64,000 bases of DNA. It comes from Echinicola sp. 20G. GTDB taxonomy: Bacteria; Bacteroidota; Bacteroidia; Cytophagales; Cyclobacteriaceae. The notes below the pieces were generated by a model. That model had not been told where the DNA came from. It was given only the letters and a program-made list of their open reading frames with translations, and searched no databases. A program made the translations under genes and the position numbers. Location: contig NZ_AP024154.1 of assembly GCF_015533855.1 (NCBI RefSeq), forward strand, positions 4,098,501 through 4,162,500, given 5' to 3'. This document shows positions 2 through 18,024 of this stretch, piece by piece; the stretch's first letter is position 1; each line of letters opens with the position of its first letter.

Positions 2-2515
2 ATGACCTTGGAGGAGAAGGTAAGTCAAATGATGAATGCCTCTCCGGCCATTTCCCGTCTAAAAGTCCCAGAATACAATTGGTGGAATGAATGCTTGCAT
101 GGTGTAGCTAGAGCAGGCTATGCCACCGTTTTCCCCCAGTCCATTTCCGTTGCGGCTTCTTTTGATAAAGGCCTTATGAAGGAAATAGGCACAGTGATTT
201 CCGATGAGGCCAGGGCCAAGCACCATGAGTTTATCAGAAATGGCAAAAGGGGGATTTATACCGGACTGGATTTTTGGTCACCCAATATCAATATATTTCG
301 GGATCCACGATGGGGAAGAGGCCATGAAACTTATGGCGAAGATCCTTATCTCACCGGAGAGCTGGCTTCCCAATTTATAGAGGGCTTGCAAGAGTATGAT
401 GGAAAATACCTGAAGACGATTGCCACTTCCAAACACTTTGCCGTCCATTCCGGACCAGAGCCACTTCGACATTCTTTTGATGTGGATGTGAGTGACAGGG
501 ACTTGTATGAAACCTATCTTCCTGCATTCCGAAAAACAGTTAAAGAGGCAAAGGTGTATTCTATCATGGGGGCGTACAATCGTTTTAGAGGGGAGTCCTG
601 CAGTGGTCATGACTTTTTGCTGAATAAGGTTTTGAGGGAGCAGTGGGGATTTGAAGGTTATGTTGTTTCAGACTGTGGTGCCATCCAAGATATTCATACG
701 GGCCATAAGATTGCATCAACAGCAGCGGAAGCTGCGGCAATTGGAGTTTCTGGTGGTTGTGATTTGAATTGTGGAAATTATTATGTTCACCTTACTGATG
801 CCGTGGCGCAAGGTTTGGTAAGCGAGGAAGAGATTGATGTTGCGGTAAAGCGACTGTTTTTGGCCAGGTTTAAATTGGGAATGTTTGATCCTGAGGAAGC
901 GGTTTCTTATGCCCAAATTCCTTTCGGAATCGTCTGCTCCGAGGCCCACAATACCTTGGCAAGACAGGCAGCCCAAAAAAGCATGGTGCTGCTGAAAAAT
1001 CAGAATGATTTACTGCCACTATCGGTGGACAAGGTCAAAAAAATAGCGGTAATAGGCCCCAATGCGGACAATGTGGAATCGCTTTTGGGCAACTATCATG
1101 GCATACCCAAAAAGCCGGTCACTTTTCTGGAGGGAATAAAGCACAAGGTGGGGCCAAAGGCTGAAGTAGTGCATTCAGAAGGCGTACATCCTGCCGAAGG
1201 GTTTTATAACCTGAAGCCCATTCCTTCTGCTTATTTTGAAACGGAAGATGGACGTCAGGGACTCAAAGGGTCTTATTATAATAACCTCAACTGGGAAGGT
1301 GAGCCGGTCTTGGAACGGATAGATGACCAAATTGATTTTTCTTGGGAACACCAGCCCATTTCGAAAGAGCTGATCGATAATTTCTCTGTAAAATGGGAGG
1401 GTTATCTGGTTCCTCCGGAAAGTGGACGTTATGAATTCGGTGTGTTTTCAAAAAGAGGTATGAAAATACGTATTGACGGGAAAGAAATATCCAATGGGTC
1501 GGGTACCATTCACCGGGGAAGATATGCCACCGATATTGTTTCCTTGAAAGAAGGGAGAAGGTATAAGGTGGAAGTCACTTTTTTCAGTGATGAGACCAAT
1601 GCCATCTCCCAAATGCTGTGGGCAAGGCCGGATGTCAGCAAGATAGATGAGGCGGTTGCACTGGCCAAAAGTGCGGACTTGGCCGTGGTGGTGCTGGGAT
1701 TGTCCCAAAGACTGGAAGGGGAAAGCATGGATGTGGTCACCCCAGGATTTGATGGAGGAGACCGTACCGCGATCACTTTGCCGGCACAGCAGGAAGCTTT
1801 GCTCAAAGCCGTCAAAGCTACGGGAAAACCGGTGATTTTGGTGCTGAATGCGGGCAGTGCCATGGCGATCAACTGGGCCAAAGAAAATGTGGATGCCATT
1901 ATTAGTGCTGGTTATCCGGGAGAAGAAGGTGGTAATGCGCTTGCAGATGTGGTCTTTGGAGACTATAATCCTGCGGGCAGGCTGCCAATCACCTACTACC
2001 AATCGGTGGAGGATTTGCCACCATTTGAAGATTATGATATGAAAGGCAGGACCTACCGTTATTTTGAAGGTACTCCGCTTTATCCATTTGGCTACGGTCT
2101 CAGTTATACCCAATTTGAATATACCGAGCTGACAATTCCTACTCAGGTAAAAGCTGGAGAAGCTGTATCCCTAAGCGTGAAAGTGACCAATACTGGGGAG
2201 AGGGCAGGTGATGAGGTAGTCCAGTTATACCTGACAGACCAAGAAGCATCTACTTTTCGGCCAATTCGGCAACTGGAAGCTTTTGAACGGATACACCTTG
2301 AACCTGGAGAAAGTAAAGAAGTGAGTTTTACCTTATCTTCCAGACAGCTTTCCATGATCAATGCCCAATCCAAAAGGGTCATTGAAGAAGGAAGTTTTAC
2401 GGTGCATGTGGGTGGAAAGCAGCCTGGCTTTGAGGGTGATTTGGATGTGGAAACTACCATGGTGGTAAAAGGTGAATTTCAGGTCAAGGGCAGTCAGGAG
2501 CTAGCTGATCTTTAA
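2..2515 (+). CDS. GH3 beta-xylosidase/beta-glucosidase with PA14 insert (5' end off window)
   Basis: Family GH3 enzyme removing terminal beta-linked sugars; the neighbouring GH10 and GH43 genes suggest xylo-oligosaccharides. The N-terminal barrel begins with NWWNECLHGVARAG, common in Bacteroidota xylosidase-like GH3 proteins. The nucleophile is Asp224 in GYVVSDCGAI. A PA14 domain (about residues 420-550) is inserted in the C-terminal alpha/beta domain, and a fibronectin-III-like domain ends the protein (about 735-830). Reading is open to the left edge and the usual signal peptide and first strand are missing, so the first ATG is probably internal and the gene starts outside the window. Family sure; substrate inferred. 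Confidence 0.93.
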   Translation: MTLEEKVSQMMNASPAISRLKVPEYNWWNECLHGVARAGYATVFPQSISVAASFDKGLMKEIGTVISDEARAKHHEFIRNGKRGIYTGLDFWSPNINIFRDPRWGRGHETYGEDPYLTGELASQFIEGLQEYDGKYLKTIATSKHFAVHSGPEPLRHSFDVDVSDRDLYETYLPAFRKTVKEAKVYSIMGAYNRFRGESCSGHDFLLNKVLREQWGFEGYVVSDCGAIQDIHTGHKIASTAAEAAAIGVSGGCDLNCGNYYVHLTDAVAQGLVSEEEIDVAVKRLFLARFKLGMFDPEEAVSYAQIPFGIVCSEAHNTLARQAAQKSMVLLKNQNDLLPLSVDKVKKIAVIGPNADNVESLLGNYHGIPKKPVTFLEGIKHKVGPKAEVVHSEGVHPAEGFYNLKPIPSAYFETEDGRQGLKGSYYNNLNWEGEPVLERIDDQIDFSWEHQPISKELIDNFSVKWEGYLVPPESGRYEFGVFSKRGMKIRIDGKEISNGSGTIHRGRYATDIVSLKEGRRYKVEVTFFSDETNAISQMLWARPDVSKIDEAVALAKSADLAVVVLGLSQRLEGESMDVVTPGFDGGDRTAITLPAQQEALLKAVKATGKPVILVLNAGSAMAINWAKENVDAIISAGYPGEEGGNALADVVFGDYNPAGRLPITYYQSVEDLPPFEDYDMKGRTYRYFEGTPLYPFGYGLSYTQFEYTELTIPTQVKAGEAVSLSVKVTNTGERAGDEVVQLYLTDQEASTFRPIRQLEAFERIHLEPGESKEVSFTLSSRQLSMINAQSKRVIEEGSFTVHVGGKQPGFEGDLDVETTMVVKGEFQVKGSQELADL

Positions 2516-2836
2516 ATTTTTGTTTTATATTCCAATGGTAAGACTTGCTCAAAAACCTTTCTTTTAAAATAATTTACCTCATAGTGAGTGACTAAAATTG
2601 GAAATATTTAATAGAAATAGTAATGCCTTTTCAATGTCGGCCTGAGTGGTATCGAAGGCTGACATTGAGTAATGGAAATAACCTTTCTTTCTGACACGCT
2701 AAATAGTAAAAAGCTACTTTTGTTTATTATTGGACATCCGTGCAAGGGAAATTTAACCTTATAAATAATTTCAGGAAATGAAGTGAAGTACCTTGGATTC
2801 AATTCAATCACATTTTCCGAAATGTTATAAATTTGT
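2516..2836. other. Intergenic region between convergent genes
   Basis: About 320 AT-rich bases between the convergent GH3 and receptor genes. Apart from the hairpin at 2631-2668, no coding or RNA signal was seen. Confidence 0.6.
2631..2668. terminator. Hairpin, probable bidirectional terminator
   Basis: TCAATGTCGGCCT and AGGCTGACATTGA form a 13-bp stem with one G-T wobble and a 12-base loop. It lies between convergent genes, as a shared terminator would, but no long T-run follows, so the role is inferred. Confidence 0.5.
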
Positions 2837-4747
2837 TCATTCCAAATGGACAAGCGCTAGTGTTTCCCAACCGCTGAGATCCTTATTGTGCCCCACCTTT
2901 TCCATTGCTTGGGAAATTTTATTTTTGAAGGCCCAGCAAGTTTCTCTCCTGAGATCCAAAATTTCAGAAAGTTCATTTAGTGTAAGCTCTACATCTTTCC
3001 GGTTGGACAGGTACAATATATAGAAAGCTTTTTCAATGGGAAATTTCAATTTGTGAAATAATGTATCCACTGTCGGTGACTCGAAGTAATTGCAATTTTT
3101 ACATCTTCTTCCATGATTAGGCGCCTCAGCGTATTTGTTGTAGCCACACTTTTTACAGATATACTTATGCTTCCACTTCAGTTCTGATAGAAATTGCAGG
3201 CAACTATCTTTGTCGGGGAAGACATTTTTGAAACTTTCAAAATCCAAACCTTTCATCAAAGCCAGGTTCTTGGTAACTTCTTCCATGTTGGTCCGAAGTT
3301 GCTCATTATTTTTCCTGAGATAGTCATTGATTTGATTGACTTGAATGTTCAACTCTTGCAACTTTAAATTAGTGGTCTGAAGCTGTACATTTTTATTGGC
3401 CAAGTCTGTTGCCATATTTTCAATCTTCTCGGTCCTTTCCTTGACTTTTTGCTGGAGTTTATTGTTAAGTTCATCGGCTAGTCTGTTTTTCTCCTCCAAT
3501 GCCAATGTCCTTTCCTCACTGACAGTTTGATATTGATCTTGAAGAAATTTGATTTGATTGAATATGGAAAGAGAAAAGAGTACCACTTCCATAAAGATTA
3601 CAGGATGAACAAAATACCAATTGATAACTTGATCCTCAAACAACGCGAAGACTATTGTATGGCTGTTGATTATGATCAAAAATAAACAGGCATTTGCAAA
3701 AATATATGACCAGGAATAGATCTTAGACCTTAGCAGCAGTCTTAACCCTATACAAAATGGGACCAGCATGATAAATATCGTTAGACCTATATACAAACGA
3801 CCCTCTATATGAAAAAAGGAGTCTTGGGTAAAAAAAAGTAAGCCTTTTAGGATAATAGCAATGATAGTTGCCTTTAACATCAATTGGCTCGCGGAATATT
3901 TTTGGACAAACCTGTTCGAAAAAAGTAAAGTTGCTATGACCACTGCAAATTGGGTGATATTTCCCTTGGTCCAGTAGTTGAGGTTAGGATAGTTAGGCCA
4001 TAAATACTGGAAGCCCAAGCCATCCCTTCCAAATGAAAACCAGATACAGGCCAATATTAGCCCGGCAAAATATAAGTATAAAGTATCCTTAAGTTTATAG
4101 ACGAGATATAAATTGAATACAAGGATAAGTGCTAGTACACCGTAGTAAATTCCTAGAAAATAATATTCATTGAGCGTGTGTTCTATAAATTTCTCATTCG
4201 TTCGTAAATGTAAATTAAAGGCAAGTGGATAACTTCTTCTTACTTTGAAGTAATAAGTTTTTTGTTCTCCCGGCCTGAGGTCAAGCAGGTAATTAAAATT
4301 TTTATGTTTAATGTTTCTTTGGCCGAAAGGAAAATCATACCCTGATGTATTGACTGCATATGTACCATCAGGGTTGGGAAAATAAAAAGTGAATTGGTTA
4401 ATATCAAAGCCCCATGATTCAAAATACCAGGAATGATCTTGGACTATGTCATTGTTTTTGACGATAAGCCTAAGCCATACATCATGCTCTAAATTGTCAT
4501 ATAATATATTATTATATAGTATAGGCCGGAATGCACCATTAAAATTATTTTCAGCTATTTGGTTTACAGTCAAATCGTTGTTGGGATCGACTAAAAAATC
4601 CATATACTCAATAATATTATCATAATCTTCTCCTCCTTTAATTACAAAAGTTTTTTCTCCCATGGCAAAGCACGGAGAGGAAATGAATAGCATTGATTTT
4701 ATCAAGAACAGATAGATGAAACTGGCTCTTAAAGTTCCTTTTTTCAC
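2837..4747 (-). CDS. 7TMR-DISM membrane receptor with IS1595-transposase-like zinc-ribbon output domain
   Basis: Predicted inner-membrane receptor. A signal peptide (1-27, GTG start) precedes an extracellular 7TMR-DISM ligand domain (about 30-185). Seven membrane spans follow (about 190-400), then a long coiled coil rich in E, K, Q and N (about 405-495). The C-terminus (500-620) has no histidine kinase, GGDEF or LuxR domain. It has a zinc ribbon with Cys531, Cys534, Cys549 and Cys552, then a helical segment aligning with residues 10-120 of the IS1595 transposase at 11619-12539: FPD...SC start, CxxC pairs, then LELQ/LNEL and a K/R-rich helix. No DDE-type catalytic domain remains. The gene is divergent from the GH10 xylanase. 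DNA binding and control of the xylan genes are inferences. Confidence 0.85.
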   Translation of the reverse strand: MKKGTLRASFIYLFLIKSMLFISSPCFAMGEKTFVIKGGEDYDNIIEYMDFLVDPNNDLTVNQIAENNFNGAFRPILYNNILYDNLEHDVWLRLIVKNNDIVQDHSWYFESWGFDINQFTFYFPNPDGTYAVNTSGYDFPFGQRNIKHKNFNYLLDLRPGEQKTYYFKVRRSYPLAFNLHLRTNEKFIEHTLNEYYFLGIYYGVLALILVFNLYLVYKLKDTLYLYFAGLILACIWFSFGRDGLGFQYLWPNYPNLNYWTKGNITQFAVVIATLLFSNRFVQKYSASQLMLKATIIAIILKGLLFFTQDSFFHIEGRLYIGLTIFIMLVPFCIGLRLLLRSKIYSWSYIFANACLFLIIINSHTIVFALFEDQVINWYFVHPVIFMEVVLFSLSIFNQIKFLQDQYQTVSEERTLALEEKNRLADELNNKLQQKVKERTEKIENMATDLANKNVQLQTTNLKLQELNIQVNQINDYLRKNNEQLRTNMEEVTKNLALMKGLDFESFKNVFPDKDSCLQFLSELKWKHKYICKKCGYNKYAEAPNHGRRCKNCNYFESPTVDTLFHKLKFPIEKAFYILYLSNRKDVELTLNELSEILDLRRETCWAFKNKISQAMEKVGHNKDLSGWETLALVHLE

Positions 4748-5241
4748 AGTAGGTATATAATCGGTTATTTTAAAGCTTTATTGCTAGGTCAATTAAATAG
4801 TATTTGAATATATAAAATTATATGTTCTCGTCTCGAAATTACCAAAGCCCAAACTGAAAATAACTTGTTTTTAAGTCAAAACAAAAAGATTAAAACTATC
4901 ACAAATTAAAACTTTTTTAATTTTAATTAACTGAATATCAGGTGTTTTATTTAAGTGCAATTAAATTTACGCTTAAGTAAATGCTAACAGAATAAATATC
5001 AAGCCATATCTTCACTTTTGGTGGTGCTAAATGGAATTTGCAATTGAAATTCAAATATGGATAATTGTTATTTAACCGAATAAATAATTGTAATTACCTG
5101 ATTTTCAGTGTTTTGTAGTTTATGTTGATACTTTTTAATTAAATATTCACTCTTTACATTTGTTTTGTCAGATGTGTTTAATTCGATTATTCATATTGGC
5201 AAATTAATAATACCCGAAACATAATCTAACTTTTGATTAGG
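4748..5241. other. Divergent intergenic region (receptor / GH10)
   Basis: About 490 very AT-rich bases separating the receptor and xylanase genes. No gene seen. It must hold both promoters and is the natural place for a cis-acting site of the receptor's zinc-ribbon domain. Confidence 0.6.
5155..5162 (+). promoter_or_regulatory. Candidate Bacteroidota -7 box (TACATTTG)
   Basis: TACATTTG matches the Bacteroidota sigma-ABfr -7 consensus TAnnTTTG, about 80 bases before the xylanase start. The best upstream TTG is 27 bases away, longer than the usual spacing, so the -33 match is poor. Candidate only. Confidence 0.3.
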
Positions 5242-6369
5242 ATGCATACTTTCCTATTGACATATGTCCTCGCTTTCATATCCATACTGGATATGGATTT
5301 TTATGAACATTCAGACAGTTCATTTTCTATTTGGCAAACCTTTGCACATGATTTTAAAATTGGTGCCGCTTTGAATGGAAGAGATGTTATGGGGAATGAC
5401 CCCATCGTAAAGAATACACTCTTAAAACATTTCAACAGTATTAGTCCCGAAAATCTATTGAAGTGGCAATCTGTTCACCCTGCCCCTGGAAACTATAATT
5501 TCAACCCTTCTGATGCCTTTGTAAATTTAGGTAAGGAGCTTAATGCCTTTATTATTGGTCATACGTTGGTTTGGCACAATCAAACACCAAGCTGGGTATT
5601 TATAAATGAATCAGGTGAATTTTTGGATAGGGAAGGACTTACCAAACGCATGGAGGACCATATCAGCACTGTTTTGGGCAGGTACAAAGGGAGCATAAAC
5701 GGTTGGGATGTAGTCAATGAAGCTTTTACCGATAATGGGACATATAGAAAATCACATTGGTATAACATTATAGGCCAAGATTTTATACCAAAAGCTTTTA
5801 AAAAGGCTCATGAGGTAGATCCTGATGCTGAGCTTTATTATAATGATTATAACCTGTGGAAGCCAGAAAAAATCGATGCTGCAGTGGCAATGGCCGCTTC
5901 TTTAAAGGAACAGGGAATACGCATTGATGGAATTGGAATGCAAGGACATTATGGACTAACATCTCCTTCATTGGAGCAGATTGAGGCTTCTATCTTAAAA
6001 ATTGCTGATCTGGGCCTTAAAGTAATGATAACAGAATTGGATATCGATGTGTTGCCTAATCCAACCAATAGGCGGGGGGCCGATATCGATGATAATTTCG
6101 AATACGAAAAGCAATATGATCCCTATCAAGAGGGTTTCCCAGAAGAAATACGTGAAGCACTGGCTCAACGATATTACGATCTTTTTGCCTTATTCGAAAA
6201 GCATAAAGAGGTGGTAACAAGAGTGACGCTTTGGGGGATCAGGGATCAAGACAGTTGGTTGAATAACTGGCCCATTCGAGGAAGAACTGCCTATCCTTTG
6301 CTTTTTGAAAATGATTATAGACTTAAATCAGAAATAGAGTTGCAGTTTAGAAAATTCGATGATAAGTGA
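5242..6369 (+). CDS. GH10 endo-1,4-beta-xylanase
   Basis: Secreted endo-xylanase cutting internal xylan bonds. The GH10 barrel is complete: acid/base Glu160 in WDVVNEAF and nucleophile Glu265 in ITELDID (numbered from the ATG), plus the substrate-binding GHTLVWH motif. A short hydrophobic N-terminus looks like a signal peptide. ATG at 5242 was chosen over an in-frame TTG three codons upstream. The next lipoprotein gene starts 53 bases downstream, so the genes are probably co-transcribed. About 375 residues, a single-domain GH10 without a carbohydrate-binding module. Confidence 0.95.
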   Translation: MHTFLLTYVLAFISILDMDFYEHSDSSFSIWQTFAHDFKIGAALNGRDVMGNDPIVKNTLLKHFNSISPENLLKWQSVHPAPGNYNFNPSDAFVNLGKELNAFIIGHTLVWHNQTPSWVFINESGEFLDREGLTKRMEDHISTVLGRYKGSINGWDVVNEAFTDNGTYRKSHWYNIIGQDFIPKAFKKAHEVDPDAELYYNDYNLWKPEKIDAAVAMAASLKEQGIRIDGIGMQGHYGLTSPSLEQIEASILKIADLGLKVMITELDIDVLPNPTNRRGADIDDNFEYEKQYDPYQEGFPEEIREALAQRYYDLFALFEKHKEVVTRVTLWGIRDQDSWLNNWPIRGRTAYPLLFENDYRLKSEIELQFRKFDDK

Positions 6370-6422
6370 TCAGTTCGTGCTCAAATAATAATTTATTGTC
6401 AATTATAAACCCTATCACCCTA

Positions 6423-7526
6423 ATGAAATACAACATCGTAATTACCGTGTTTATGGCAAATTTCCTGTTAATGGCTTGTAATTCTAGCCGTCAAGAAAAT
6501 GATCAACAGGAAAGTGACAGTACAGAAACTGATACCATTAGTTATCTAAACCAACCCTTGGTTGAAGGTTTGTACAGCGCTGATCCCTCAGCACATGTTT
6601 TTAATGGAAAAATCTATATTTATCCCTCACATGATGTAGAATCAGATACAAAAGAAGATGATTCCGGGGCACAATATGACATGAAAGATTATCATGTTTT
6701 TTCCATGTCCAACCCGGGGAGTACAGTGACTGACCATGGCCTTGCATTGGACATTGAGGATGTGAAATGGGCCAAAAGACAAATGTGGGCACCAGATGCA
6801 GCCCAGAAAAATGACAGATATTTCCTTTACTTTCCGGCCAAGGATGAGGATGATATTTTCAGGCTTGGAGTAGCCGTATCAGAAAGCCCAGAAGGACCTT
6901 TCAAAGCAGAACCGGAACCAATTTCCGGGAGTTTTAGTATGGATCCTGCCGTATTCGAAGATACAGACGGGAAGCACTATATATATTGGGGCGGTATTTG
7001 GGGAGGCCAATTGCAAAAATGGAGAACTGGTGAATACCTATCAACAGGAGATAGCCCATATGATGATGAGCCCTCTGATGAAGAGCCAGCAATTTCACCT
7101 CGAGTAGCTATCTTAAAAGACAACATGTTGGAGTTTGGTGAAAGTCCAAGAAAAGTATTGATTCTTGACGAGTCTGGGGAGCCTATAAAGGCCGGAAATC
7201 ATGATAAAAGGTTTTTTGAAGCCTCTTGGGTCCACAAAAATAATGGAACCTATTATTTCTCCTATTCCACTGGCGATACCCATAAAATAGTTTATGCTAC
7301 CGGGGATAACCCTTATGGTCCATTTACTTACCGTGGAGTGATTCTTCATCCGGTTCAGGGCTGGACCAACCATCATTCCATTGTGAAATTTGAGGAGGAA
7401 TGGTATTTATTTTACCATGATACACAGCTATCTGGAAAGAACTACCTAAGAAATATAAAAATGACCAAATTAGTTCATAATCCTGATGGTTCTATACAAG
7501 AAATCAAACCTTACACTTTAAAATAA
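6423..7526 (+). CDS. GH43 family lipoprotein (xylosidase/arabinofuranosidase type)
   Basis: Surface or periplasmic lipoprotein with a GH43 five-bladed propeller, probably releasing xylose or arabinose from xylan fragments. The start at MKYNIV gives a proper lipoprotein signal with lipobox LLMAC (Cys19); an upstream in-frame ATG at 6366 would spoil it. Catalytic residues visible: base Asp54 (SADPSAHV), pKa modulator Asp174 (SMDPAVF) and the acid Glu in FFEASWVH. Family sure; alpha-arabinosidase versus beta-xylosidase activity cannot be settled from sequence reading alone. Confidence 0.92.
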   Translation: MKYNIVITVFMANFLLMACNSSRQENDQQESDSTETDTISYLNQPLVEGLYSADPSAHVFNGKIYIYPSHDVESDTKEDDSGAQYDMKDYHVFSMSNPGSTVTDHGLALDIEDVKWAKRQMWAPDAAQKNDRYFLYFPAKDEDDIFRLGVAVSESPEGPFKAEPEPISGSFSMDPAVFEDTDGKHYIYWGGIWGGQLQKWRTGEYLSTGDSPYDDEPSDEEPAISPRVAILKDNMLEFGESPRKVLILDESGEPIKAGNHDKRFFEASWVHKNNGTYYFSYSTGDTHKIVYATGDNPYGPFTYRGVILHPVQGWTNHHSIVKFEEEWYLFYHDTQLSGKNYLRNIKMTKLVHNPDGSIQEIKPYTLK

Positions 7527-7611: not shown

Positions 7612-8466
<855 letters not shown>

Positions 8467-9745: not shown

Positions 9746-9877
9746 ATCTTTTATGTTTATTGTTTATTTTTAAATCATTGTATTTCAGTGATTTAAATAA
9801 ATTAAATCACTAGTTTATTTACGTATTTTAGTACTTAATTTTGTAGTTTTTTTGCAAATATTTTGCAAATTTTAAAA

Positions 9878-11143
9878 ATGTATATGTCAGACAGTAAGAG
9901 AGTTAAATCAGAAAAGCAGGTTATTTTGTCTCTGGATTTAGATAATAGGCGAAAAAAATCCAATGGATTATACCCCTTAAAGATTCGAATTTATAATACC
10001 GCTACCCAAAAGAACAGGTACTATAGCACAGGGTATGATATGGATTTATTGACCTATAAGAAGGTTTTTGAATCTTCTAAGCCCAAAAGAAGGGAGCGAG
10101 AGATAAGGGAAGAAGTAGAAGCCCTTCTATTAGAATACAAGGCCATTGCTCAAGATATTGATGATTTTACCTTTGATACTTTTGAAGAAAAACTGTTTAA
10201 GCCTAAAGGGGAGTCTCAGGATATCTTTTATCAATATAAAATGAAAATTGAGGAACTGGACGCCCAGAAAAAGATTGGCACCAAGTCCAATTATAACTGC
10301 AGCTTAAAATCTATAAAGCAATTTTTATCAGAGAACAAGTCACGTGTGCCAAAGCGATTGTACTTTTCTGAAGTTACACCAAGGTTTCTAAAACGCTATG
10401 AACAATGGATGATCGATAAAGGAAATTCAAGATCAACCGTCGGCATTTATCTTAGACCATTAAGGCATCTTTTCAATATAGCAAAACCATCTAATTATCC
10501 ATTCGGCAAAGATGGGTATAGCATCCCAAAAGGTAGAAACAAGAAAAAGGCTATCAATAAGGAGGGGCTAAAGATCCTATTTGAGACACCGCCTGAGAAC
10601 GAGTTCCAAGAAAAAGCCAAGGACTTTTGGTTCTTCTCCTATCTCTGTAAAGGGATGAATATGAAGGATATTCTGTATTTAAAATGGAGCCAAGTCAAAC
10701 CCAAATGTCTGGAATTTATCCGGGAAAAGACGAAAGATACTACTGATGCCCAAATTGTTATCCGTGTTCCACTATCAACAGTTTCTAAGCATGTGATCAA
10801 TAAATATGGAAGTGAGCAAAAAGGCAAAGACGATTTTGTATTTCCTGTTCTCAATCATACTATGAACGAGGAAGAAAAATTTAAAGCCAAGCAAAATTTT
10901 ACAAGGTTGATCAACCAGCATATGAGGCGGTTTGCCAATCATGCGGGTTTCGAATAGGAAATAAGTACCTATTGGGCCAGACACAGTTTTGCAACCATGG
11001 CAATCAGAAAAAATGCCTCTATTGAATATGTTGGAGAATCCTTAGGGCATTCCGATATTCGAACTACAAAATCATATATTGATAGTATTATGGACGAAGA
11101 AAGTGATCAGAAAATGATAGACGGGATGATGGATTTTGACTGA
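9878..11143 (+). pseudogene. Tyrosine recombinase/integrase interrupted by an amber codon
   Basis: Bacteroidota-type site-specific integrase with an N-terminal arm domain (about 1-95), a SAM-like core-binding domain (about 100-205) and a catalytic domain. TAG at 10955-10957 interrupts the frame. The same frame continues to TGA at 11141 with the missing catalytic part: ISTYWARHSFATMA, ESLGHSDIRTTKSYID and its tyrosine nucleophile. The first catalytic Arg position reads KGMNMKD, a variation common in this Bacteroidota clade. One nonsense change therefore separates it from a complete 421-residue integrase (numbered from the ATG at 9878). Without readthrough the protein lacks the nucleophile. Confidence 0.85.
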
Positions 11144-11618: not shown

Positions 11619-12539
11619 TTATCCGCAATGATGCCAGTAAGGATAAATAGCAGCAATGATGAGTCTGTCAAATAGTTTTTGACCGAAATATCTTCTGTTG
11701 AGCTTATAACAAAACTCATCAAGATAGTTTTGCATCATTCTTTCACTTATCATATGGTATGTCTGCAGGTGTTTTTTTAAGTTACTAATAGCAATGTGTA
11801 CCCATTTGAGGTTGAAGAGCCCCTTTTCGGTTCCCGAGATCTCCTTGACATGCACATCTATACAATCACTCAGGTCTGAGAAGGTGGTGCTCATATCTGT
11901 TTGAAGCACGGAGTTTGGATCAATAAATTCCTTGACCAAATTCTGGGCTGTTTTCGCCTCCAGGTTCTTTATCTTCTTCATCTTAAAATATCTACAGCTT
12001 TTGTCGGACTTGCCCGTTTCAAGGTCTTCCAAAACCGTTGATTCGGCCATTACGGACACAATCGACCGTTTTTGGCTGCCCCTGCCTCTTTTGAGTTTGC
12101 GTGGGTTTTTCGTTGCTTTGCCCACAAAGGCCTCGTCATACTCCACCATGTCCGCAAGACTGTAAAGATCATCGCGTTTCCCCATGACCTTGCGGAGTTT
12201 ATGGTACATCCTGAAAACCGGTTCATATCGTTTCTGGCCCAACAGTCTTTGCAGTTCCAAAGCGCTGAACCCCTTCTTGGTGGCTGTGAGGAAGGTCATG
12301 GCCAACAACCAGGTCCTTATCGGAAGGTTGCTGCATTCCATGACAGTACCGCTTTTGATACTTGTTCGGAAGCTGCAGCAAGAACATTGAAAGGACTTCT
12401 TGTTTGCCAACCAATAATGCTTGGTAACTTTGCATCTTTTGCAGATGATACCTGCTTGGCTCCTTTTATGCATAATAAACTCGATACAGGAAGATTCGTC
12501 AGGAAACCGATTGATGAAGTTGATAATGTTCATGGTCAA
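11619..12539 (-). CDS. IS1595-family (ISXO2-like) transposase
   Basis: DDE-type transposase, 306 residues. An N-terminal zinc ribbon (CKRC and CSCC) and a helical segment (..FSALELQRLLGQKR..) are followed by the ISXO2-like catalytic domain. That domain has an Asp in the EYDEAFVGK block, an Asp in LQTDMSTTFSDL, and a C-terminal HIAISNLKKHLQTYHMIS / NYLDEFCYKLNRR block typical of the family. The frame is intact and flanked by inverted repeats, so it may be active. Its N-terminal region is the closest relative in this window of the receptor's output domain at 2837-4747. Confidence 0.92.
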   Translation of the reverse strand: MTMNIINFINRFPDESSCIEFIMHKRSQAGIICKRCKVTKHYWLANKKSFQCSCCSFRTSIKSGTVMECSNLPIRTWLLAMTFLTATKKGFSALELQRLLGQKRYEPVFRMYHKLRKVMGKRDDLYSLADMVEYDEAFVGKATKNPRKLKRGRGSQKRSIVSVMAESTVLEDLETGKSDKSCRYFKMKKIKNLEAKTAQNLVKEFIDPNSVLQTDMSTTFSDLSDCIDVHVKEISGTEKGLFNLKWVHIAISNLKKHLQTYHMISERMMQNYLDEFCYKLNRRYFGQKLFDRLIIAAIYPYWHHCG

Positions 12540-12863: not shown

Positions 12864-14255
12864 TCACTTCACCTCAACGATGATTCTTTTGTAACTAGTT
12901 AATTTTGGTGAGCCATTATCAGTCACTTCGCAGATGATATGGGTGGTCTTGCCGGAGGAATCACTTGGAAGATCAATTTTAATATGATTGGAGTCACTAT
13001 TCTGGATCTTTATCTCACCTTTATAAGTACTTGCCTCAGGGATAATCCACCATTTGAAACTCAGTTCATCGCCTTCTGGATCGTAAGATCTGGATGCATC
13101 TAAATTTATAGTTTGGCGTTTCTTTGCCTTCACTCTTAGCAACTCTATGCCCTCCATTTTATTTATTACCACAATTGGGTTGCGGTTTCCTTTCCCTTCA
13201 CTTGCCCAGTCCATTCTGGCAGCGAAATTGTTATAGATTGCAGGGTAGAAGTAGCTTTCGTATTTCCTGGATATATCAACTTCCGGTGCTTGAAAGTTAG
13301 TAAAAGCTTGTGTTTCCTGATCTTCACTAATTCCCTTTTCGAAATATCCTCCCCAACCTACTTGGGAAGGAACCATTGGGTCGTTCAAACCATTTGGCAT
13401 CAGATGTAAAAAAGCAGGTGTATCACCTTCTACGCCGTATTTATATTTGGGATAGACTTTACCCAGATTTCCATGAGACTGTATATCCACTTCATATTTT
13501 TCCCAATTACTTTTACCTGTTCCATTCTGATATTTCCAAGCAGATTCATCCCAGATAAAGAGTAAATCATCAGAAAACTCCCTTCTCATCCATTGGTGTG
13601 AGCTAATCGCAAAATCAGTTTTTTGATCTCTATCCTGATCGGTGATCGCATAGGTTGGGATTTTTTGAAGAAATGTCCTCAGTTCTGATTCTGATCTTGT
13701 TTGCTGCACTTTCCAGATAGCTTGGGCTAAGGTATTTCCTCCACCCCAAACAGTAATCCAAAGAGGGCGCTGATCCGACTCATCTGCAAGTTCGATGATC
13801 AATTCACTTCCTTCTGAATTGTTGTCCGCTCCAATAAATTGCTGACCTCGGTTTTTGCTGCCAAATACAGTAATGCTTCGCAAATAGTCCGGACTTGGCC
13901 AGTAACCTATGCTTTGATTTGATTCATCGGCAAGAAAGCCTTGTTGATTTGATCGCTTCATCAAGTTTGGAAGATCCTTTTCATAAGCGTCTATTGCATC
14001 ATGGATCAAGTCCATGAAATCATCCCGGGTTTTATCGAGACTCCAACCTGTAGTGAAAATCAAGCCCTCGATTTCATATAAATCTGCGTGGACAAGCAAT
14101 CTGACTAAAGATTCACTATCATCGGTTTCCCAAGTGGAAACATCCGTCAATACAACAATTCTCGGCTTTGGTATAGCTTTCTTTTGATCTTGCTGGGCAA
14201 AAGCATAGCAGGAAATAATAGACGCAAAGAAAAGAGCGAGAATTGATTTTTTCAT
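12864..14255 (-). CDS. DUF1593 / Sde182-like nucleoside-hydrolase-fold protein A
   Basis: Secreted protein with signal peptide MKKSILALFFASIISCYAFA; this ATG was chosen over one 12 codons upstream because it starts the signal. The DUF1593 domain (about 30-330) has the nucleoside-hydrolase-like acidic motif VLTDVSTWETDDSES. An Ig-like beta domain follows (about 375-460; VKAKKRQTINLDASRSYDPEGDE). Such proteins occur in polysaccharide loci and the founding member bound cellulose; the reaction is unknown. Downstream of the pectate lyase on the same strand and probably co-transcribed. It is a distant paralogue of the protein at 15765-17060. Confidence 0.85.
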   Translation of the reverse strand: MKKSILALFFASIISCYAFAQQDQKKAIPKPRIVVLTDVSTWETDDSESLVRLLVHADLYEIEGLIFTTGWSLDKTRDDFMDLIHDAIDAYEKDLPNLMKRSNQQGFLADESNQSIGYWPSPDYLRSITVFGSKNRGQQFIGADNNSEGSELIIELADESDQRPLWITVWGGGNTLAQAIWKVQQTRSESELRTFLQKIPTYAITDQDRDQKTDFAISSHQWMRREFSDDLLFIWDESAWKYQNGTGKSNWEKYEVDIQSHGNLGKVYPKYKYGVEGDTPAFLHLMPNGLNDPMVPSQVGWGGYFEKGISEDQETQAFTNFQAPEVDISRKYESYFYPAIYNNFAARMDWASEGKGNRNPIVVINKMEGIELLRVKAKKRQTINLDASRSYDPEGDELSFKWWIIPEASTYKGEIKIQNSDSNHIKIDLPSDSSGKTTHIICEVTDNGSPKLTSYKRIIVEVK

Positions 14256-14332
14256 TAAACTAAGGGTATGACTCAACGAGCTAAGGCGCATTATAAATAA
14301 TTTTGGGGTTTGATTTATATGGTCCGGATTTT

Positions 14333-15721
14333 TTACTTGATTGAATTCAAATAATCCTCCAACATGGTAAAACCTCCTTTAATAAGATTTCTATCAGCAG
14401 GATCTGAAGGATTAAGACCATTTGCTATTTCCCATTGATCTGGCATCCCATCATGATCGGAGTCTTTAGGAGCCGGTAAACTCTTGAGTTCAGGCCATCC
14501 TCCTACATCGTTTTGGGAATCAATGATTCCTGATTTCTTTAAAGGATCGATCAAGGAGTGATCCTTTTTATAAGTTGCTCCTTCATACGTCGTAGATCCT
14601 CCTTTTGTCTCGTTGACAATCCTGATATCCACTTCATCTCGTTTTGGCAGGATAGCGCCGGCGTTTGCTAATACCAATTCAAAAGCTTCTTCGGCCTTTT
14701 GTTGGTTTATGGGCATGGCATCCCACGGTTCATTTAGCTTCACAAATTTTAAGTTTTCTTCCCCTCCTTGAGGCTGCACTCCGCCTTCCCAATTGTTGGC
14801 AGTCACTTTCTCATTGCCCATCATGACATTCTCAGCAATATACCATTTTCCAAAATCACTCGTAGTATCCCGCATATTAGGGTTGGCAAGTCTATATCGA
14901 ACTTCTCCCGTCTCGGTAGCGGGCCCTGGTTTATAGTAGTTTGCGACCATATTGATCGTCGAAAATGCATACTTCGGATTATTTACCTGTTGGTTTTCTC
15001 CTCCATAAGTGCTGTTGTATCCCCAGTTATAGACCACATTATTTCTATAATCTGTAAAGCCAGACCCTGATGCCATTCTAGGGTTACGACTACCATGATG
15101 AGCGAAAAGATTATGGTGATAGCTACCGTAGTTGGATCCCCAAATTCCACCAAAACCATGAGCTCCTTTGATATGGTTGGAATCATGCATGCTCTCCGAA
15201 ATTATACTCCATTGTACAGTAATACTGTCGCAATGGTATATGGACATAGTTTCATCCACACTCCAGCTTGCAGAAATATGGTCTAAAATAATGTGTTTGG
15301 TATATCTACTTGAAACAGCATCTGTGTCCTCTCCGGATTCGTTACCGAGTCTTACTCTTATATACCGAATGATCACATGATCGGCATCGATCATCAGAGG
15401 AAATTTTTTGAGGCAAACCCCATCTCCAGGAGCTGTTTGACCAGCTATGGTGATATAGGGATTTTTGATTCGAAGTGGACTTTCCAATTCTATCGTGCCT
15501 GAAACTCTAAAGACGATTGTTCTGGGTCCATTAGCATCAACCGCAGCTCTCAAGCTCCCTTCACCGCTATCATTCAAATTTGTAACTTCATAAACCGCTC
15601 CTCCACGGCCACCTTTGGAAAATTTCCCATAGCCTTCTGCTGTAGGAAAGGCTAGTTGCTGAGATAATGCTGAGGTAAAAGCTAACACGCTTAATACCGC
15701 TAGTAAAATGGTAGTTTTCAT
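14333..15721 (-). CDS. Pectate lyase (PL1-type), secreted
   Basis: Right-handed beta-helix lyase predicted to cleave polygalacturonate by beta-elimination. A signal peptide (1-20) precedes AFPTAEGYGKFSKGGRGG, typical of Bacteroidota PL1 enzymes. The helix carries the usual calcium/catalytic-face motifs: DHVIIRYIRVRLG, DTDAVS, ILDHISASWSVDE and HHGSRNPR. A short C-terminal DSDHDGMPDQWE segment is a thrombospondin-3/dockerin-like calcium motif. It lies between two DUF1593 genes on the same strand with gaps of 77 and 43 bases, so a three-gene operon is likely. Confidence 0.9.
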   Translation of the reverse strand: MKTTILLAVLSVLAFTSALSQQLAFPTAEGYGKFSKGGRGGAVYEVTNLNDSGEGSLRAAVDANGPRTIVFRVSGTIELESPLRIKNPYITIAGQTAPGDGVCLKKFPLMIDADHVIIRYIRVRLGNESGEDTDAVSSRYTKHIILDHISASWSVDETMSIYHCDSITVQWSIISESMHDSNHIKGAHGFGGIWGSNYGSYHHNLFAHHGSRNPRMASGSGFTDYRNNVVYNWGYNSTYGGENQQVNNPKYAFSTINMVANYYKPGPATETGEVRYRLANPNMRDTTSDFGKWYIAENVMMGNEKVTANNWEGGVQPQGGEENLKFVKLNEPWDAMPINQQKAEEAFELVLANAGAILPKRDEVDIRIVNETKGGSTTYEGATYKKDHSLIDPLKKSGIIDSQNDVGGWPELKSLPAPKDSDHDGMPDQWEIANGLNPSDPADRNLIKGGFTMLEDYLNSIK

Positions 15722-15764: not shown

Positions 15765-17060
15765 TTATTTCGTTAGCCATTTCCACCTTTCTGCCCAGTC
15801 CGTTAAAAACTCCTTCCTGAATTTTGAGATGGTCTTGGCGCCTTGCTGATCTTCGATAAAAAGAGCTTTATCTACTTTGTCACTATACCAATTTGCACCT
15901 ACTTGGTAATCATCTGATGAAGTTTTTCCCGGCCAAGGAAAAGTGCTGATGTAATTTCCTTCCAAACCGTCCAATTCAGCTATAGCGCTACTGGATTTAT
16001 AATACCCTTTTTCGGGTTTTTTAGATGAATATTTAATTCCATAAATACCATTACCTAAATAATATCCAGGCCAAGTCTGATTTTGAATTTCCATTTCGAA
16101 CACGACAGAATCCTCGCGAATCTTCAGTTCAGGCCCTTCAAATCTCCACTCAATAGTTCCATAGGCTGCCACAGTATCTTCTAATGAACTTCCTCCTAGA
16201 AATACATTTCTTGAACTGCGATTGATCTTTTCAAAACTTCCACCCCAGCTTTTTCCGGTAGGTTCGTTTGGGTCACCGTTCATAAGATAAACCAGTGAAG
16301 GAGTGTCGCCCATTTTGATATTTCCATCATAATACTTGATAAAATCCTGGCCCATGGCTCCTCGACCATCAATGTAGTTTTTGTAAAAGGCGTCTCCTTT
16401 TAGATCCTCTGGCGAATCCTCATCCATAAACCATCCTCTGTAGGTGGAATTTGCCTCTATCATCCAAAGGTCAGGATGATATTCAGCTATATAGGAATAG
16501 GCATTGATACTCCACTTTTTATTGGGGCCGCCTATCCAATACACTCTGATATTTTCTTTGATTTCGGGAGCATCATGAAGTGCCTGTGCAAGATCTTCAA
16601 TCCCTCCCCAAACAAGTACCCATAGCGGTTGCTCACTTTCTTTTTTTGCACATTTTATAATCCATTCTGAACCTTCCGTAGGAGTAGTATAACCTCTAAA
16701 AGGTGCGGCATCTTTTCCCCCTTGCTTGGTAATGGATCTTAGGGATATTGGAGTTGGAAATTCTGGAGAATGTCTTTGGAGTTGAGTATAATCTATTTCA
16801 TATAGATCTATCATATTCTGAAAATCCTTGGTGCTGCCTTCTCCATAAGGTGATGAAATCAAGCCTTCGATCTGGAATTGATCTGCATACATCAATAGGT
16901 GAATCATCGATTGAAAATCATCGGGATCTGTTCCACCTATATCTGAGCTGATCAATACCCTTGGCCTAAGAACTTTTTTCTCATGCTCCTTGCAGCCAAA
17001 TAAGGAAGCAAAAAACAGGATCACTATTAAACCTGATATACTTCGACTTTTCAATTTCAT
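15765..17060 (-). CDS. DUF1593 / Sde182-like lipoprotein B
   Basis: Lipoprotein (lipobox FASLFGC, Cys23) with a DUF1593 nucleoside-hydrolase-like domain: VLISSDIGGTDPDDFQS, SSPYGEG and VLVWGGIEDLAQAL. A beta-rich tail lacks the long Ig-like extension seen in paralogue A. First gene of the presumed pectin operon, divergent from an AraC regulator 121 bases away. Reaction unknown; membership of a pectin-degradation locus suggests action on a side chain or exposed sugar. Confidence 0.85.
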   Translation of the reverse strand: MKLKSRSISGLIVILFFASLFGCKEHEKKVLRPRVLISSDIGGTDPDDFQSMIHLLMYADQFQIEGLISSPYGEGSTKDFQNMIDLYEIDYTQLQRHSPEFPTPISLRSITKQGGKDAAPFRGYTTPTEGSEWIIKCAKKESEQPLWVLVWGGIEDLAQALHDAPEIKENIRVYWIGGPNKKWSINAYSYIAEYHPDLWMIEANSTYRGWFMDEDSPEDLKGDAFYKNYIDGRGAMGQDFIKYYDGNIKMGDTPSLVYLMNGDPNEPTGKSWGGSFEKINRSSRNVFLGGSSLEDTVAAYGTIEWRFEGPELKIREDSVVFEMEIQNQTWPGYYLGNGIYGIKYSSKKPEKGYYKSSSAIAELDGLEGNYISTFPWPGKTSSDDYQVGANWYSDKVDKALFIEDQQGAKTISKFRKEFLTDWAERWKWLTK

Positions 17061-17181: not shown

Positions 17182-18024
17182 ATGATAAATACTTTCGATG
17201 AAAGCCGAAATGAGTTTAAACCTTATGGATTGACTTGTGAGCTATGGTCTCCAAGCATAATGAGAAAGCCTGATAGGCACAATGAAATTGAAATAAACTA
17301 TTTCCCGGAAATTGGCATTACTTATCTTATTCAAGGAAATAAAGTAGTTGTTCCACCTAAAAAACTGACTGTTTTTTGGGGGCTTATTCCCCATCAAATT
17401 ATTGATTTCACTAATGATAAGCCATATTACGTCTGCACGGTACCATTCTCACTTTTTTTGGAATGGAAGCTTTCTGTTCCTTTTGTGGATAAGCTGCTGA
17501 AAGGTGACGTGCTATTTGAAGCTTCAAAGGAGCGTTCGAAGTACGATGAGTATCTTTTCAAAAACTGGCTGGCAGATATCAATGTAAATGAAGCTGCAGA
17601 AGTTGCGTTGCTCGAAATACATGCAAGATTGAGAAGAATGTCTATAGGCAATTTCTCCTCTGAAAAAAAGGAATACACATCACTTCAATCCAATGAAATC
17701 AGTCAGGTTGAACGGATTGCTATTTTTATTGCTCAAAATTATTCGGATCCTATCAAAGTATCTTCAATTGGTCAGGCTGTGGGTTTGCATCCTGACCATG
17801 CTAATTCGATTTTCAAGAGGACATTTGGAAGTACGCTAAGCGAATACATCACCGAGGAAAGAATCTCTCATGCGCAGAGGAAGTTGGTAGCGACAGACAA
17901 AAGCATCACAGATATCGCTTTTGATTGTGGTTTCAATTCTATCAGTCGCTTTAATGCAGCTTTTCTGAAAATCAATGGGTGTACACCAAGAGAATTTAGG
18001 AAGAGGTATTTATTGAACAGATAA
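17182..18024 (+). CDS. AraC-family transcriptional regulator
   Basis: A cupin-like sensory N-domain (about 1-160; INYFPEIGITYLIQGNKVVV) and a C-terminal double helix-turn-helix (about 180-277; ISEYITEERISHAQRKL-type region, ITDIAFDCGFNSISRFNAAF) make this a sugar-responsive AraC regulator. Divergent from the DUF1593/pectate lyase operon with 121 bases between starts, so control of that operon is the simplest hypothesis. Ends beside a partial third copy of the structured repeat. Confidence 0.9.
   Translation: MINTFDESRNEFKPYGLTCELWSPSIMRKPDRHNEIEINYFPEIGITYLIQGNKVVVPPKKLTVFWGLIPHQIIDFTNDKPYYVCTVPFSLFLEWKLSVPFVDKLLKGDVLFEASKERSKYDEYLFKNWLADINVNEAAEVALLEIHARLRRMSIGNFSSEKKEYTSLQSNEISQVERIAIFIAQNYSDPIKVSSIGQAVGLHPDHANSIFKRTFGSTLSEYITEERISHAQRKLVATDKSITDIAFDCGFNSISRFNAAFLKINGCTPREFRKRYLLNR

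Follow-up and report, generated by a model that had tools for sequence, protein, structure and literature searches.

A kinase-free 7TMR-DISM receptor with an IS1595-type zinc ribbon-HTH tail at glycan loci of the Bacteroidota: a candidate class of membrane-bound regulators

The window analyzed here, a 64,000-nucleotide stretch of the genome of Echinicola sp. 20G (contig NZ_AP024154.1, positions 4,098,501 to 4,162,500), encodes a membrane receptor composed of a 7TMR-DISM sensor, an S-helix coiled coil and a C-terminal output in which a zinc ribbon is followed by a helix-turn-helix (HTH) region homologous to the head of IS1595 transposases. The tail is conserved across related receptors and forms a single clade, and these receptors commonly stand at glycan-degradation loci with conserved elements upstream of the neighboring genes. 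We consider it quite probable that the protein is a membrane-bound, one-protein regulator of polysaccharide-utilization genes, which would sense a glycan and, free of any kinase, directly control the neighboring degradation genes. With a little less assurance, we propose that such receptors constitute an unrecognized class of regulators of polysaccharide-utilization loci (PULs) in the Bacteroidota. In this class the transposase head would have been captured once, fused to 7TMR-DISM and later shuffled onto Reg_prop/Y_Y_Y sensors, and the clade-specific, often paired operators would have co-diverged with the tail and would predict the glycan locus of the receptor.

Receptor architecture and the origin of the tail

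Both domains of a 7TMR-DISM receptor, as which the protein had been identified from its sequence, are matched in Pfam: 7TMR-DISMED2 (E 3.6e-25) and 7TMR-DISM_7TM (PF07695; E 7.2e-24, over the cut-off), the latter folding as a helix bundle in the predicted structure. The coiled coil that follows carries the ERT signature of the S-helix, described as a coiled coil that lies between receptor and output (PMC1592074). In an alignment of 48 sequences (the window protein and 47 relatives) T439 of this signature is invariant and R438 nearly so. Pfam and NCBIfam scans detected no histidine kinase, receiver, GGDEF or phosphatase domain, in agreement with the original prediction that the output is not a kinase; the single weak kinase-model match lies inside the coiled coil. 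At the C-terminus, Zn_ribbon_IS1595 is matched with E 0.0049 in the whole protein and 0.00043 in the tail alone (both below the Pfam cut-off), and the NCBIfam model transpos_IS1595 with E 3.9e-5 (also below cut-off). The DDE catalytic domain (PF12762) has no Pfam match in the receptor and a strong one in the IS1595 transposase of the window (11619-12539).

The alignment of the tail with this transposase, on which the original prediction had rested, is borne out by direct comparison (24% identity over 119 residues, E 5e-9) and by comparison of a tail profile with a transposase profile (probability 98.6, E 5.4e-16, 122 columns). The latter match is collinear, with FPD/SC lead, zinc ribbon and HTH all in register. 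The two CxxC pairs that had been pointed out do not vary among the 48 aligned sequences. The residues common to nine transposase heads and 51 tails include these four cysteines, E, S and T downstream of them, and, in the last HTH helix, one T and one W; three of the nine heads appear by eye to be catalytically dead. Agreement with the IS1595 zinc ribbon stands at the level of sequence profiles and is weak at that of structure: a Foldseek search with the tail structure against the PDB gave no significant match, its weak match having an HTH-like fold. Across 18 close homologues conservation within the receptor is highest in the tail, whose median identity to the window protein is 83%, as against 48% for the periplasmic region, 59% for the seven-transmembrane (7TM) domain and 64% for the coiled coil.

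The fusion recurs widely, as would be expected from the earlier proposal. A protein search found 113 relatives among the matches listed, of which the first 99 show neither kinase nor cyclase nor phosphatase in their precomputed Pfam lists, while the later ones mostly have such a domain. A genome scan confirmed at least 529 relatives, some perhaps with other outputs; the best 80 of these were kept as loci, and every one of them has the zinc-ribbon motif. Genera represented among the loci include Echinicola, Belliella, Cyclobacterium, Pedobacter, Mucilaginibacter, Chitinophaga, Fulvivirga and Chryseolinea. Within the order of the window organism, the tail profile is matched, counting transposases, in 79 of 194 genomes, and in at least 58 the match lies in a frame of 580 or more residues; across the whole phylum, 39 of 296 genomes contain a match, nine of them in such a frame. 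The genome of the window itself encodes a second zinc-ribbon-tailed receptor, a paralogue. The presence of the tail in all 80 best loci together with its invariant cysteines argues that the receptor is not a chance fusion. Neither outcome that would have refuted the original idea arose, the domain matching at the profile level and relatives carrying the gene.

To place the tail, a tree of heads was built from 79 rows (77 different), with 51 receptor tails (49 distinct); rows were called receptors from the long stretch ahead of the tail, with a 7TM scan applied to some but not every row. The 51 receptor tails fall together in one clade (support 100/99). Joined with a high-scoring transposase lineage they make up a group of 61 rows (support 100/100), away from the IS1595 copy of the window. 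Since the columns are few, the inner branching order of the tails is uncertain. A single receptor-tail clade beside a transposase lineage is most simply read as one capture, with a donor lineage different from the window IS1595. Profile homology, tree, conservation and common residues together support the idea, put forward originally, that a transposase DNA-binding head was exapted as a receptor output. Its implied source, the neighboring IS copy, was wrong: the tree rules this element out as donor and makes it a distant cousin only, and against the tail profile it scores 47.7 bits, where other transposases mostly reach 134-156 bits and that of L133 reaches 92.

Three Reg_prop/Y_Y_Y sensors, each about 1000 residues long and resembling those of hybrid two-component systems (HTCS), end in the same zinc ribbon-HTH and have no kinase, although in the sensor of L160 the Pfam zinc-ribbon model is not reached at 0.001. 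Their tails sit at two places inside the receptor clade, from which it seems that the tail was passed between sensor types. As a separate observation, one genome (G350) contains 14 tail-profile matches, mostly IS1595-like proteins of about 310 residues. Three of these (L156:4841-5839, L158:4608-5531 and L157:5662-6591) seem on inspection by eye to lack the first two of the catalytic Asp residues, and strong terminal repeats were not found for them; the IS1595-like proteins of this genome are possibly domesticated soluble regulators.

Glycan loci and candidate operators

Gene neighborhoods were counted in 79 loci (L087 left out), of which 75 have a next gene and 73 a second gene. The next gene downstream on the same strand encodes SusC in 44 of 75 loci. 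SusD is encoded by the second gene in 45 of 73, and the count at every other position is 4 or less. The loci are not independent, with Pedobacter accounting for 20 of the 44 SusC-adjacent cases; nine named genera are found within the 44. The gap between receptor and SusC measures 194-421 bases. Representatives of the neighbor clusters are TonB/SusC, SusD, the glycoside hydrolase (GH) families GH30 and GH3, LamG and PF10091 (GH144); near the subfamily of the window protein they are GH10, GH43, GH67 and an esterase. None of the named clusters occurs within six genes in 16 of the 79 loci (17 of 80 with L087, which lies near a contig end). The paralogue in the window genome heads a SusC-SusD-LamG-PF10091-GH3 cluster, and genes of the SusC and SusD families follow the Reg_prop sensor of L151. 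The window genome has 77 SusD matches in its 5.8 Mb, from which we estimate the chance of adjacency to SusD at about a per cent.

At the window locus the receptor is, as originally described, divergent from a xylanase gene, here the first of a GH10-GH43-esterase series. It is adjoined by carbohydrate-active enzymes, with no SusC or SusD, and no SusD match lies between genome positions 4,072,202 and 4,177,194. The 18 kb preceding the window contain, judged by eye, further glycosidases and esterases.

Motif searching of 37 non-redundant receptor-SusC gaps recovered the element gATACGCTTgAAtACC with a score of 178.6, where two simple shuffles reached 46-53; palindromic models scored below non-palindromic ones of equal width. 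In a control, 36 gaps scored 174.0 and 36 regions upstream of the receptor 81.7, the latter figure having no shuffle baseline. The corresponding pattern GGTANNNAAGCGTATC has 20 matches in 12 whole Pedobacter/Chitinophaga genomes, at least one in 11 of them, against a single match for the reversed pattern. By comparison of coordinates, 18 of the 20 lie in a receptor-SusC gap, the other two being in G483 outside such loci. A relaxed pattern has 42 matches in the 6,339 bases of 22 Pedobacter/Chitinophaga gaps, from which it was itself derived; the remaining 459,529 bases of these loci contain no match. In 20 of these 22 loci (e.g. L051, L064) two copies of the element stand on the same strand 90-92 bases apart, a spacing that is not explained by one dimer.

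Loci of the Cyclobacteriaceae type carry a different element, CGTTTGAAATCNATGTTTTT, which scored 177.4 in 23 regions against 70-84 for dinucleotide shuffles. It has 17 matches in 13 genomes against one control match. By the same coordinate comparison 11 of the 17 lie in a receptor-SusC gap, among them every one of the nine that have no more than one mismatch; 11 of the 13 genomes carry the element in the gap. A core TTNAAGCGYA common to all clades is a lead only, being seen in parts of the set of each clade and missing from many loci.

Among the other loci (1.52 Mb) the first element was found only at L105/L170, at L123/L162/L169 and in two stretches of G483. At L105/L170 (G139) it occupies the gap ahead of SusC-SusD; in G436 (L123/L162/L169) it occurs once ahead of GH2-GH5 and twice ahead of SusC-SusD. 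The receptors of G139 and G436 share a tail clade with those of Pedobacter in the tree. As the element is found at same-clade receptors with other gene orders, its occurrence tends to go with the receptor and not with any one gene pair. We read the elements in the receptor-SusC gaps as operators, specific to each clade and nearly unique in the genome.

In the window a candidate operator lies in the divergent intergenic region (Table 1). The motif of this subfamily is weaker (57.9 against 42-43), and the statistical strength of the candidate falls below that of the elements in related clades. Its first arm includes TTTAAGYGCAATT, at position 4950, which is well conserved in five aligned intergenic regions. 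The window site is the only perfect match to TTTAAGYGCAATTNA in the genome; besides it the pattern search gave nine sites that differ by a single mismatch, where the reversed control gave six. Gene neighborhood and conserved upstream elements together support the regulatory role at glycan loci that had been suggested.

We also asked whether the operators might be relics of transposon ends, scoring five inverted-repeat ends of related transposases against the operator matrix. This is not supported: 9.95% of shuffles reached the summed score, and one of the five ends scored below its own shuffle mean.

Table 1. Coordinates of the features discussed (window positions unless a locus is given)
Feature	Position	Strand	Remarks
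Receptor-regulator gene	2837..4747	-	636 aa, GTG start at 4747
7TMR-DISMED2 periplasmic sensor, RetS-like jelly roll	4202..4606	-	residues 48-182
Seven-transmembrane domain	3563..4168	-	residues 194-395
Cytoplasmic coiled coil	3314..3547	-	residues 401-478, S-helix ERT signature at 437-439
IS1595-type zinc ribbon	3086..3214	-	residues 512-554, Cys 531, 534, 549, 552
Helix-turn-helix region, matches IS1595 transposase model	2870..3046	-	residues 568-626
Divergent intergenic region, receptor / GH10 xylanase	4748..5232	.	
Candidate operator	4950..4977	.	TTTAAGTGCAA + inverted CTTAAGCGTAA, short spacer
Second conserved block ATTTAACCGAATA	5070..5082	+	five-region alignment
GH10 xylanase	5233..6369	+	likely target
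GH43	6366..7526	+	likely target
Esterase	7630..8466	+	likely target
GH3 glycosidase	2..2515	+	convergent with receptor
Reg_prop/Y_Y_Y sensor with same tail	L150:1903-4896		
Reg_prop/Y_Y_Y sensor with same tail	L151:1506-4712		
Reg_prop/Y_Y_Y sensor with same tail	L160:2875-5910		

Several other genes of the window deserve mention. The original prediction saw no other xylan regulator, which needs qualifying for the window as a whole: an AraC-family gene, a second possible carbohydrate regulator, is found about 12 kb away (17182-18024), where it adjoins a lyase-like gene and Sde182-type genes. There are two Sde182-like genes, recognized by Pfam (12864-14291) and by eye (15765-17060), with the lyase-like gene (14333-15721; no Pfam match at 0.001) between them. 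A tyrosine-recombinase-like gene (9863-10957), with SAM-like and weak arm domains and no catalytic-domain match in Pfam at 0.001, stands with the IS1595 copy between a Sde182 gene and the xylan genes.

Proposed mechanism and competing explanations

We propose the following mode of action. The DISMED2 jelly roll would sense a glycan fragment, probably derived from xylan at the window locus, and the signal would pass through the seven transmembrane helices to a dimeric S-helix coiled coil. A ligand-induced change in the S-helix dimer could then alter the grip of the zinc ribbon/HTH tail on its DNA sites, with no kinase or phosphorelay of the receptor's own. The tail is predicted to bind the operators upstream of the neighboring glycan genes and most likely to activate, rather than repress, them; the spacing of about 92 bases between paired elements would suggest two bound dimers or looping.

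Of the competing explanations, the one that fares best, though we think it unlikely, holds that the gap elements are sites of promoters, RNA leaders or other factors, and that the targets of the receptor lie elsewhere. The elements were indeed found by their position beside a gene and not by binding, they differ between clades, and no clear copy of either strong element accompanies the paralogue in the window genome; furthermore, L163, L077 and L085, from the same tail clade, have no match to the first element. This explanation sits poorly with the recurrence of the first element at same-clade receptors of other groups with other neighboring genes (L170, L169), and with its near absence from the rest of the 12 genomes.

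A second alternative, to which we give a lower probability still, is that the tail no longer binds DNA and instead serves as a protein-interaction or zinc module relaying to a separate regulator, for instance the two-component pair of Pedobacter. Zinc ribbons often bind protein, and the structural match of the tail is weak. The gene order in Pedobacter/Chitinophaga also speaks against a simply independent receptor: in 12 of 22 loci (L051, L064, L065, L073, L075, L076, L081, L083, L084, L086, L089, L090) a histidine kinase gene lies 25-92 bases upstream on the same strand, itself preceded by an OmpR-type response regulator, as judged from gene order with one representative checked. This pair, however, is confined to part of the set, the kinase being absent in nine of the 22 loci and one locus being undecidable, and no other regulator gene adjoins the receptor throughout. 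The residues that tails retain in common with transposase heads and the near-unique elements adjoining the glycan genes likewise favor a DNA-binding tail. In L087 a 799-residue 7TM-type histidine kinase adjoins a zinc-ribbon receptor of the same cluster (2475-4874 and 5445-7346).

Finally, a chance or recent functionless fusion with a fragment of the neighboring IS1595, which the integrase-like gene about 5 kb and the IS1595 copy about 7 kb from the receptor might bring to mind, is extremely improbable given the universal tail of the best loci, its invariant cysteines and its distance from that copy in the tree.

Relation to known regulators and significance

The direct regulator proposed here combines elements that are separately known, namely 7TMR-DISM proteins, membrane one-protein regulators and transposon-derived regulators. 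The histidine kinases RetS and LadS and certain diguanylate cyclases share its DISMED2 periplasmic domain, 7TM region and helical linker, but its output is a zinc ribbon-HTH in place of a kinase, GGDEF or phosphatase domain. Closer in output is the DNA-binding domain of the ChiS family, which occurs on 7TMR-DISM proteins in proteobacterial genomes and may likewise yield membrane one-protein regulators (PMC8092284); that domain is a cryptic HTH variant, with no transposase origin mentioned in the passage cited. In the passages considered here, reviews of glycan regulation name HTCS and extracytoplasmic function (ECF) sigma systems. These too are membrane sensors controlling glycan genes, whereas the receptor has no kinase, receiver, AraC domain or sigma factor. 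SusR, an inner-membrane-spanning regulator of the sus operon, is likewise a one-protein membrane regulator of a PUL (PMC11216935).

IS1595-family transposases have the same zinc ribbon and HTH head, with the difference that in the receptor the head forms the C-terminus and the DDE domain is lacking. We know of no transposase link for SusR. TldR repressors originate from TnpB. They are also bacterial regulators made from a transposon protein (PMC13418256), but are RNA-guided and not membrane receptors. Searches of an open-access library, judged by title and the start of the abstract and with most subscription journals outside their scope, turned up no description of the present combination.

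If the proposal is correct, it would add a kinase-free class of regulators to those known for glycan loci and would explain the "transposase" and "signal transduction protein" labels found adjoining SusC genes. It would also show, in bacteria, the head of a DDE transposase recruited as the output of a receptor, and would supply predicted operators and substrates that are directly testable.
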